Positions 48,761-51,464 of a DNA stretch of 64,000 nucleotides are shown piece after piece. The position numbers and the translations under genes were made by a program. The notes below the pieces were generated by a model. That model had not been told where the DNA came from. It saw only the letters and a list, made by a program, of their open reading frames with translations, and ran no database searches. Source of the stretch: an uncultured Lachnospiraceae bacterium (lineage in GTDB: Bacteria > Bacillota > Clostridia > Lachnospirales > Lachnospiraceae). The DNA is taken from positions 1 through 64,000 of the forward strand of contig CANOCU010000011.1 of the NCBI GenBank assembly GCA_947564645.1, read 5' to 3'. The stretch's first letter is position 1. Each line of letters begins with the position of its first letter.

Positions 48761-50236
48761 CTATACCCTGCTGTATAATCTGGTCATATCGTAAATGCGC
48801 TCCGCCAGCTCTGACGTAAATTCTCCCGGCAGCATCCTCCATTTCCAGTTCGTCCCCAATGTGGACGGCATGTTGATCCTCGCCTCCGTGCCAAGTCCCA
48901 GATAATCCTGCATCGGGATCACACAGGTATCGGACACGCTGGCCATCGCCGCGCGGATAAACGCCCACTGCACATCCTTACTGCTGCGGATATGCAGATA
49001 CTTCCTGGCAAACGCCTTATCCTTGCGGTTCAGCTGCGTATACCAGCCGACTGTGGTGTCATTGTCATGCGTCCCTGTATATACGATGCTGTTCTTATCG
49101 TAATTGTGCGGCAGATAATCGCTCTCTTCTCTGGAGTCAAAAGCAAACTGCAGTATTTTCATGCCCGGATAACCGGTCTTTTTCACAAGTTTTATGACCG
49201 TATCGGTCAAAAATCCCAGATCCTCCGCGATCACGGCCTTATTTCCCAGCTTCGCCTTCATCGTCTTAAAGATGTCATAGCCGGGGCCTGCTTCCCAGTG
49301 TCCAAATTCCGCCGTCTCATCACCGTAAGGGATTGAATAATATTCGTCGAAGCCGCGGAAGTGATCGATCCGCACCACGTCATAAAGCTTATAACAGTAG
49401 GCGATCCGCTTCATCCACCAGGCGTACGCCGTCTCTTTATGATACTCCCAGCGGTACAGCGGGTTCCCCCACAGCTGCCCCGTCGCCGAGAAAGCATCCG
49501 GCGGGCATCCTGCCACCGCCACAGGCGTCAGCGTGTCATCCAGCTGGAACAGCTCCGGGTTGGCCCAGGTGTCCGCACTGTCAAACGCCACATAGATCGG
49601 AATGTCACCGATGATCTGTATCTTCTTCTTATTCGCATATTCTTTCAGTGCGAACCACTGCTTCGCGAACAGATACTGCTGGAATTTATAGAATTCCACT
49701 TCTTCCGCATATTCCTCGCGGTATCGCTTCATGGCTTCCGGTCTGCGGAGTTTAATGTCCTCATCCCACTCGCTCCAGCTCTTCCCGTCAAAGGAATTCT
49801 TCACCGCCATATAAAGTGCGTAATCGTCAAGCCAGTAGCCATTCTCCTCCACAAAATCCTGGTAAGCCTTCTCCTGCTCCAAATGGCTGTTATGAAAAGC
49901 GCTCTTCAACACCTTGAATCTGGACAGGTAGATCTTCTCATAATCAATATATCTTTCATTATCCCCAAAATCGCATTTTACACAATCTTCTTCGGTCAGA
50001 TATCCTTCCCCGATCAGTGTTTCCAGATCAATATAGTAGGGATTCCCCGCAAATGTAGAGAAAGACTGATAAGGAGAATCTCCATATCCTGTCGGTCCCA
50101 GCGGAAGGATCTGCCAATAGGACTGTCCCGCCTTCTCCAACAAATCTATAAACTCATAGGCCTGTTTTGAAAATGTGCCAATCCCGTATCTGGACGGAAT
50201 ACTCGATACAGGTAATAAAATTCCACTTTTTCTCAT
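48761..50236 (-). CDS. malQ: 4-alpha-glucanotransferase
   Basis: Predicted 491-residue GH77 enzyme that disproportionates maltodextrins. Visible landmarks: the N-terminal RKSGILLPVSSIPSRYGIGT, the acceptor-site DIPIYVAFDSADTWANPELF near 225, the nucleophile region DVVRIDHFRGFDEYYSIP near 315, the acid/base region VIAEDLGFLT near 360 and YTGTHDNDTT near 415. It lies downstream of the permease genes and upstream of the LacI gene, which fits use of imported maltodextrins. Confidence 0.97.
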   Translation of the reverse strand: MRKSGILLPVSSIPSRYGIGTFSKQAYEFIDLLEKAGQSYWQILPLGPTGYGDSPYQSFSTFAGNPYYIDLETLIGEGYLTEEDCVKCDFGDNERYIDYEKIYLSRFKVLKSAFHNSHLEQEKAYQDFVEENGYWLDDYALYMAVKNSFDGKSWSEWDEDIKLRRPEAMKRYREEYAEEVEFYKFQQYLFAKQWFALKEYANKKKIQIIGDIPIYVAFDSADTWANPELFQLDDTLTPVAVAGCPPDAFSATGQLWGNPLYRWEYHKETAYAWWMKRIAYCYKLYDVVRIDHFRGFDEYYSIPYGDETAEFGHWEAGPGYDIFKTMKAKLGNKAVIAEDLGFLTDTVIKLVKKTGYPGMKILQFAFDSREESDYLPHNYDKNSIVYTGTHDNDTTVGWYTQLNRKDKAFARKYLHIRSSKDVQWAFIRAAMASVSDTCVIPMQDYLGLGTEARINMPSTLGTNWKWRMLPGEFTSELAERIYDMTRLYSRV

Positions 50237-50400
50237 GACTGCAACAATCCTTTCCCAACGATATCCGTACCGGCCCCTTTACCTGTCTGTCACTCATAGT
50301 ATTCCCGGTATCGTTTCCATTCTACACGTTTCCCCTCATTCCCGCAAGACAAATTTGCAAATTTCGCCTTAATTCGACGAAGAATCTATAGCTTATTTTA

Positions 50401-50409
50401 CCCCCCCCC
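50401..50409. repeat. Nine-base C tract upstream of malQ
   Basis: A run of nine C residues lies about 165 bases upstream of malQ. Such tracts slip easily in replication and are also prone to assembly error. Whether it lies in a promoter is unclear. Confidence 0.5.
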
Positions 50410-50445
50410 GAATTATTTTTGTCAAGCAAGTATTTGGCAGCCTAC

Positions 50446-50603
50446 CGTTTCCGAGTAACAGCTCAGCCCAGGACTTTGCACTTGCTGCAAAGTCCGTGAA
50501 AATAAGTAAGTTGGGCCAAGGGAATCTGCCCCTCGCCGAAGGCGACCTGGAATGGGCAGATTCCGTAACAGAGAAGCCGAAGGCTGAACTGTTACGTTTC
50601 CGA
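50446..50603. mobile_element. Candidate MITE with 8-bp target duplication
   Basis: A 141-bp body (50455-50595) starts GTAACAGCTCAGCC and ends GGCTGAACTGTTAC, inverted repeats matching at 13 of 14 positions. It is flanked by GTTTCCGA on both sides (50447-50454 and 50596-50603), and the direct repeat can be read as nine bases with the preceding C. The body folds into three hairpins: GGACTTTGCA/TGCAAAGTCC, GGAATCTGCCC/GGGCAGATTCC, and GTAACAG/CTGTTAC at its end. No coding frame. It lies between the permease stop and malQ. Confidence 0.65.
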
Positions 50604-50627
50604 CATTCTGCCAGCCACGAGTCATAA

Positions 50628-51464
50628 TCAACCCTTTACGGCGCCTGCCACAATACCTTCGATGATATATTTCTGGCACATGAAGTAGAAGATAACGATC
50701 GGGATCAGCGCGATCACGATGGTCGCCATCAGGTGACCGTAGTCGATGGAACCGTAACCGCTTCTCAGATACTGGATCGCAACCGGAATGGTCCTGTACT
50801 TCGTGCCGATGATCAGATACGGAAGCAGGAAGTCATTCCAGATCCACATCGCATTCAGGATCGCGATGGTGATGGAGATCGGTTTCAGCACCGGAAATAC
50901 CACCTTCACAAACATGGTCAGCGGATTACAGCCGTCGATCAGACCGGCCTCTTCCAGCTCGATCGGAATACCCTTCACGAAGCCGGTAAACATGAACACC
51001 GCCATACTGGAACCAAATCCCAGATACAGTACGTTAATGCCGACAAAATTGTCCAGGTGCGTCATATTCGCCACCTTGGTCATCGTGTACATGACCATCT
51101 GGAAAGGCACTACCATACTTGCAATAAACATAAAGTAAATAAAGGATGTCAGCTTATTCTTCACTCTGGTGATATACCACGCTGTCATGGAACAGAAAAC
51201 AATGATCATGATAACGGAAACCACCGTGATAAACAGGGAGTAACCGATACTGTCCATGAAATGGATTTTCGTCAGACCTTCGATGTAGTTCTTCAGGCCG
51301 CGGAAGCTCTCGCTGTTGGGCAGCGCAAACGGTGAAGTCGAAATATACAGCTTATTCTTCAAAGAGTTCATGATCACCAGCGCGATCGGAATGATAAAGA
51401 TTACTGACAAAATCGTAAGGATAACATAAATGAGTATGTTTGCCGCTTTTCTCTTTTCCTGCAT
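50628..51464 (-). CDS. Carbohydrate ABC transporter permease, MalG-like
   Basis: Predicted 278-residue permease with six membrane segments. EAA loop: EEAGLIDGCNPLTMFVKVVFP near residue 170. The C-terminus (YIIEGIVAGAVKG) is typical of the MalG/LacG group. It starts one base after the partner permease stop, so the two are tightly coupled. Uptake of maltodextrins is inferred from malQ. No ATPase gene is nearby; a shared MsmK-type ATPase elsewhere is expected. Confidence 0.92.
   Translation of the reverse strand: MQEKRKAANILIYVILTILSVIFIIPIALVIMNSLKNKLYISTSPFALPNSESFRGLKNYIEGLTKIHFMDSIGYSLFITVVSVIMIIVFCSMTAWYITRVKNKLTSFIYFMFIASMVVPFQMVMYTMTKVANMTHLDNFVGINVLYLGFGSSMAVFMFTGFVKGIPIELEEAGLIDGCNPLTMFVKVVFPVLKPISITIAILNAMWIWNDFLLPYLIIGTKYRTIPVAIQYLRSGYGSIDYGHLMATIVIALIPIVIFYFMCQKYIIEGIVAGAVKG

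Follow-up and report, generated by a model that had tools for sequence, protein, structure and literature searches.

A dispersed three-hairpin MITE of Lachnospiraceae with IS66-type ends and an 8-bp target duplication

ISDge4 is an IS66 element of the ISBst12 group that was seen to transpose. Its ends, GTGACTACTCAGCA and GTAACTGCTCAGCA, follow the pattern GTAAC..(T/C)TCAGC and are bordered by an 8-bp direct repeat, and its description claims the first report of active transposition in the ISBst12 group of IS66 (PMC12898284). Other published IS66 ends begin with GTAAGCG or GTAACCG (PMC12888890). MITEPsy1 of Pseudomonas syringae is described as a non-autonomous element of 100 nt with ends resembling those of a resident insertion sequence (ISPsy2) and a 4-nt duplication, and its movement was shown experimentally (PMC3189936). 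CREE of Neisseria (PMC2649163), BOX/RUP of pneumococcus (PMC3049150; SPRITE in PMC10969869) and QMITE2 of Coxiella (PMC10969869) are described as bacterial MITEs with structured cores: they are short and multicopy, have inverted ends or a conserved core, and form stable hairpins in the transcript. REP palindromes are small and dispersed (PMC3733652).

The element analysed here shares features with each of these. Like ISDge4, it carries ends of the GTAAC..(T/C)TCAGC type and an 8-bp duplication; unlike elements of the ISBst12 group, it codes for nothing, measures 141 bp and has no autonomous partner found in its own assembly. Its shortness, inverted ends, hairpins and copy number recall CREE, BOX/RUP, SPRITE and QMITE2. 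CREE, BOX/RUP and QMITE2 have other ends and other hosts by their descriptions, whereas this element has IS66-type ends and the 8-bp duplication; compared with the accessible descriptions of those three, it is further marked by two-sided covariation over three hairpins and an orientation bias. It differs from MITEPsy1 in the length of the duplication and in that its movement is inferred from sequence. Solo 31-bp right hairpins of the family look like REP palindromes, but two such solo copies carry their own 8-bp duplication and the right-hairpin sequence of the MITE. The parts of the literature covered by our search contained no earlier IS66 MITE, and a term search of the main text of the MITE review PMC10969869 gave no mention of IS66. 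The element is of an ordinary kind, a well-supported MITE, and of a new family as far as the literature searched reaches.

The stretch of DNA under study (the window, 64,000 nucleotides) comes from an uncultured Lachnospiraceae bacterium. An earlier note on it had proposed a candidate MITE with inverted ends matching at 13 of 14 positions and GTTTCCGA on both sides, and both the ends and the duplication were confirmed at 50447-50603. The body, of subfamily A, occupies 141 bp on the plus strand (50455-50595) and is enclosed by a left (50447-50454) and a right (50596-50603) copy of GTTTCCGA, delimited by repeat comparison and by the family-wide length of 8. The left terminal inverted repeat, GTAACAGCTCAGCC (50455-50468, plus strand; family consensus GTAACAGTTCAGCC), pairs at 13/14 positions with the right one (50582-50595), which reads GTAACAGTTCAGCC on the minus strand, a sequence shared with the right terminus of an IS66-like element. 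The flanks match over 9 bp in the window (CGTTTCCGA), the ninth base being the element's own last C together with a chance C; the duplication was set at 8 bp because other copies show that length.

A further end copy, GTAACAGAGAAGCC, lies inside the element (50565-50578, plus strand) as an alternative pairing partner of the right end. The GTAACAG copies at 50455 and 50565 and the CTGTTAC at 50589 are all present as had been described, and the alternative pairing proposed from them exists in most copies, whose right end can pair either with the left end or with the GTAACAG inside the element. The left end of subfamily B is unchanged, whereas its right end and internal copy have changed together. 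The claim that the element has no coding frame had to be qualified: an 85-aa open frame with a GTG start spans it on the minus strand (50422-50679), yet this frame is unlikely to be coding because duplication-bearing copies have lengths that differ by single bases, among them 137, 139, 141, 142, 143, 144 and 145 bp. According to the ORF list, the short (141 bp) element also lacks an IS66 transposase gene; it can therefore be at most an IS66 derivative and not an IS66 member.

The element lies between two genes on the minus strand, to both of which it is antisense. The gene at 48761-50236 (491 aa) is presumably malQ-like and that at 50628-51464 (278 aa) presumably a sugar ABC permease-like gene, the names being those of the earlier note together with general resemblance. 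The permease stop is separated by 24 bp from the right duplication copy, and the left end of the element by 218 bp from the malQ-like start. When the permease end and its flank were used as query, matches were obtained in 51 of 77 genus genomes, three of them close (G052, 93%; G074, 92%; G062, 90%). None of these three closest orthologous loci carries the element at the corresponding place, and the window element is therefore read as an insertion. The empty site of G052 and G074 forms a hairpin of 12 and 13 bp, respectively, behind the permease gene in centroid folds, the folded stretch of G062 not reaching this host hairpin. Remnants of its arms could be located in the window by the orthologous-locus alignment and folds, TGGCAG on the left (50435-50440) and CTGCCA on the right (50608-50613); the element and its duplication now occupy the former loop between them.

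Hairpins as a general insertion target were also considered and rejected: of the 61 insertions whose duplication has no more than one mismatch, 59 were examined, and as a set they showed no preference. The mean hairpin score was 4.8 against 4.7 in controls (p 0.33), and the fold energy was -11.3 against -12.8 in controls (one-sided p 0.985 for stronger folding). A decayed copy in another genus, L328:1514, keeps hairpin 1 and sits inside an apparent terminator hairpin. A run of nine C, a possible slippage tract that is absent from the three orthologous loci, was seen upstream of the malQ-like gene (50401-50409).

Searching the element's own genome (4.1 Mb, 140 contigs) gave 35 matches to the body, of which 15 were full length: five copies of subfamily A (141 bp), the window copy among them, and ten of subfamily B (143 bp), near-identical to one another. 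An exact 8-bp duplication borders 12 of the 15; two further copies agree at 7 of 8 positions and one shows none. Two copies, L021 and L023, have the same flanks and may come from a single site that entered the assembly two times or from a region that was duplicated, so that 11 of 14 distinct sites carry the exact duplication. Over 123 distinct end pairs, taken from loci mostly fetched for their match to the element and including some wrong pairings, exactly identical flanks of lengths 4 to 12 were counted 0, 0, 0, 1, 48, 1, 0, 0 and 0 times. The target duplication is thus fixed at 8 bp, since 48 of the 123 pairs fall on this length and at most one on any other.

The mobility inferred in the earlier note accordingly finds comparative support, and neither of the two refuting conditions named there came true: the element recurs many times, at different sites and with 8-bp duplications, and the closest orthologous loci, three in number, lack it. 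A chance or stable intergenic repeat, or a terminator that does not move, could be suggested by the position between two tandem genes and by the strong hairpins inside. Such a reading is refuted by the 8-bp duplications at unrelated sites and by the empty orthologous sites, and we regard it as having next to no probability. The comparative data give good support to a mobile origin, and the 141-bp body is one copy of a MITE, a repeat family of short, non-coding and dispersed elements.

Within the genus, element matches were obtained in 28 of 77 genomes, the element's own included. At the family level, with copy L002 as query, they were found in at least 34 of 397 sampled genomes and at least 30 of 334 genera, again with its own included; two candidates were scored per genome, which makes these counts lower bounds, and some of the matches are short. 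The left 45 bp compared against named genomes gave 59 stretches, including those in Parablautia muri, Hominisplanchenecus murintestinalis, Lachnospiraceae bacterium COE1 and several MAGs. Viral contigs gave no match to an exact 28-base pattern, and plasmids and phages gave no match to the element. Among five genomes in which end-like sites were counted, the 6.1-Mb genome G043 had the highest number (270 sites, 120 + 150, with at most one mismatch). In the MAG JAAWOG, six stretches (L195, L202, L205, L207, L221 and L223) begin 52-55 bp before the core, as if the assembly had broken inside near-identical copies, the whole-contig status being known for L195 only.

The explanation that we favour, with a probability of roughly 0.85, is a non-autonomous DNA transposon on which an ISBst12-type transposase of the IS66 family would act in trans. 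This enzyme would recognise ends of the type GTAAC-(AG/TA/TG)-TTCAG and join the element to target cuts made 8 bp apart, and repair would then give rise to the 8-bp duplication. The end pattern and the duplication length suggest IS66, and the MITE ends begin with 5'-GTAA as the published IS66 ends do. The genome G442, from another genus, contains two copies, L291 and L292, of an IS66-like element (PF03050, E 3.6e-19). Over their last 1116 bp the two show 4 mismatches; each terminates in ...GGCTGAACTGTTAC, beyond which they diverge, 13 of the 40 following bases being equal. Their right end is identical to the MITE right end GTAACAGTTCAGCC at 14/14 positions, and the contigs break before the left end. 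L268 contains GTAACTATTCAGCC, the sequence with which subfamily B closes on its right; the neighbouring ORF is incomplete, the contig stopping after 172 aa of it, and has its sole match, just under the cut-off, to DUF6444. In L134 this domain precedes that of IS66. The end reads GTAACTATTCAG or GTAACTGTTCAG in several ISBst12-like elements of the family, and single-ORF relatives in Lachnospiraceae carry PF03050. In the genus, PF03050 matches were present in 30 of 77 genomes, the element's own assembly not being among them, and five IS66 elements with GTAAGCG or GTAAACG ends have an exact 8-bp duplication (L107, L140, L149, L150 and L151).

The same searches leave some room for a driver from another DDE family that makes 8-bp duplications. 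No IS66 gene was detected in the own draft assembly with PF03050, the L134 transposase or the L292 transposase piece as query, and the transposase searches covered IS66 only. The 14/14 end identity with two IS66-like copies argues against such a driver, as does the pattern shared with the published ISBst12-group ends (PMC12898284), and we consider it improbable. Multi-copy elements are often missing from draft assemblies such as this one, with its 140 contigs and a completeness of 91%, but the IS66 gene may also be truly absent from the genome. None of the contigs examined shows an IS66 element that has MITE-type ends at left and right together with an 8-bp duplication. Two complete-looking ISBst12-like elements, L134 and L262, showed no duplication. 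The genus relatives L134, L144 and L159 end in GTAACTATTCAG and not in GTAACAGTTCAG, and among further genus relatives of these transposases (L135-L138, L293, L298 and L299) no end of the MITE type was found.

Derivatives of the element could also be recognised. Solo 31-bp right hairpins with their own 8-bp duplication, as judged by eye, occur at L034 (= L048; tatctgtt) and L039 (ggcggaag). Deletion or recombination between the two GTAACAG copies, which lie 110 bp apart, would leave a 31-bp solo palindrome with the duplication kept. The solo palindromes and half elements probably result from deletions, of which this would be one example. Longer variants with an intact duplication were noted at L213:701-1041 (341 bp) and L173:6273-6614 (342 bp), and forms of 159-160 bp with an added apical hairpin at L071, L190 and L229, both arms differing between L229 and L071. 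The own genome further contains elements with the same end type and other interiors, at L088, L089 and L091 (C37:14224-14397, C38:16852-17027 and C135:744-919) and also at L095 (position 2065) and L090 (position 2017). Their sizes are 174-176 bp, about 49 bp and 140 bp. Since the ends are common to them and the interiors differ, several MITE families seem to use a single type of end.

The interior of the window element folds into three hairpins on the plus strand. Hairpin 1 (50471-50495; GGACTTTGCA/TGCAAAGTCC) contains the most conserved interior sequence, hairpin 2 (50521-50564; GGAATCTGCCC/GGGCAGATTCC) encloses an inner hairpin (50533-50537/50541-50545), and hairpin 3 (50565-50595) is a 31-bp palindrome made of the internal copy and the right end. 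The folding energy is -64.4 kcal/mol on the plus strand (z -5.25) and -70.0 kcal/mol on the minus strand (z -6.72), none of 200 shuffles being as good in either case. Of the three strong nested hairpins claimed previously, the strength holds on both strands, but on the plus strand the hairpins stand in a row, with the inner hairpin in the middle one.

Hairpin 2, as the best interior inverted repeat, takes 38 different stems among 67 distinct elements, for example GAATCTGCCC/GGGCAGATTC, GAATCCAGCCC/GGGCTGGATTC and GCATCAAGCC/GGCTTGATGC; the list holds one repeat per element by construction, and the diversity of the stems is the result. Independently of any covariance model, the interior inverted-repeat score reached the shuffled 95th percentile in 55 of 60 elements and fell below it in five. 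Set A1 comprised 55 of 82 elements, with length outliers, elements with more than 3 duplication mismatches and near-identical subfamily B copies left out. A covariance model was built from 24 chosen sequences with a structure specified by the author; the window copy, itself among the 24, scored 169.3 bits. In the alignment fitted to this model (109 matches, 102 distinct), which leans to the specified structure, two-sided changes were found in 36 of 37 hairpin pairs, 96.5% of cells were paired (0 of 500 shuffles as high) and compensated cells numbered 347 against 58.6 in shuffles. Sliding the partners as a control lowered pairing to 28-43%. A plain MAFFT alignment evaluated with RNAalifold gave two-sided changes in 4 of 25 pairs, a low count because hairpin 2 is misaligned there. 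Chance covariation is unlikely since the effect is large and the stems are independent; on the modelled alignment, the three-hairpin interior is predicted to be kept by compensatory change. The hairpin-1 sequence and an unpaired GTGA(R)AA after it are strongly conserved. No Rfam match at E<=1 was obtained within 50300-50700.

Copies located between co-directed genes lie predominantly in sense orientation, 41 against 14 antisense (p 3.6e-4), or 41 against 11 with a stricter ORF cut-off (p 3.6e-5); the window copy belongs to the antisense minority. These counts used 92 of the 109 model matches, repeat loci and weak matches being left out; for seven of the 92 the flank was too short, and one was dropped as a duplicate in the main count. 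Merging the sole orthologous-insertion pair found left the count unchanged, and a simpler first count had given 24 against 4 among 54 sites. ORFs were called by a simple rule and not by a gene finder. A first context count placed 15 of 54 sites inside an ORF; after our own correction rule for too-early starts and for sites at gene ends, 5 (or 3) of 92 copies were so placed. With the stricter cut-off, sense copies lie at a median of 35 bp from the upstream gene end and 69 bp from the next start.

This orientation bias speaks for a strand-specific effect, RNA being one possible target. The interior may then be a functional RNA module of intercistronic regions or 3'-UTRs that tunes read-through or the stability of the mRNA; the transposase would have dispersed it, and its plus-strand fold would be conserved because it acts as RNA. 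The two-sided changes with their shuffle and sliding controls, the conserved GTGA(R)AA and hairpin-1 sequence, and a slight excess of G-U pairs over A-C cells (67 against 50, in the best 94 rows, 87 distinct) fit such a module. G-U makes up just 2.2% of the 3074 standard pairs, whereas in typical structured RNAs it accounts for about 10% or more. The supporting alignment is fitted to the structure while the plain one yields 4/25 pairs, the window copy is antisense, Rfam gave no match in the region searched and no U run follows hairpin 3 within the element. On balance we consider the RNA module possible but rather unlikely.

The scarcity of G-U pairs also suggests an upkeep of the palindromes at the DNA level, and the compensatory changes could have arisen by template switching at palindromes, with one arm corrected from the other, or through a transposase that needs cruciforms or single-stranded hairpins, with no function of the RNA. 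Few wobbles, a comparable count of A-C cells, folds that are strong on either strand and a right hairpin that contains the transposon end itself are consistent with such processes. They do not by themselves explain the orientation bias, nor the one-sided conservation of hairpin 1, its loop and the trailing GTGA, and the counts of G-U pairs and A-C cells become 64 and 30 when the outermost pair of hairpin 2 is left aside. We hold an origin in DNA processes to be quite plausible, at a little under an even chance. The broadest reading, in which IS66-type transposases would have dispersed a conserved three-hairpin RNA module through Lachnospiraceae, where it acts on the transcript and host selection keeps it mostly in sense orientation close behind gene ends, compensatory change preserving the pairing across many genera, is put forward as a speculative and rather unlikely proposal.

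The MITE provides gut Lachnospiraceae with a countable small mobile element whose empty sites are recognisable, by which insertions near genes can be traced. Its covarying fold and orientation bias make it possible to test whether selection acts on a MITE interior as RNA or whether DNA processes maintain its symmetry, and the element would extend the ISBst12 group of IS66 to MITEs.
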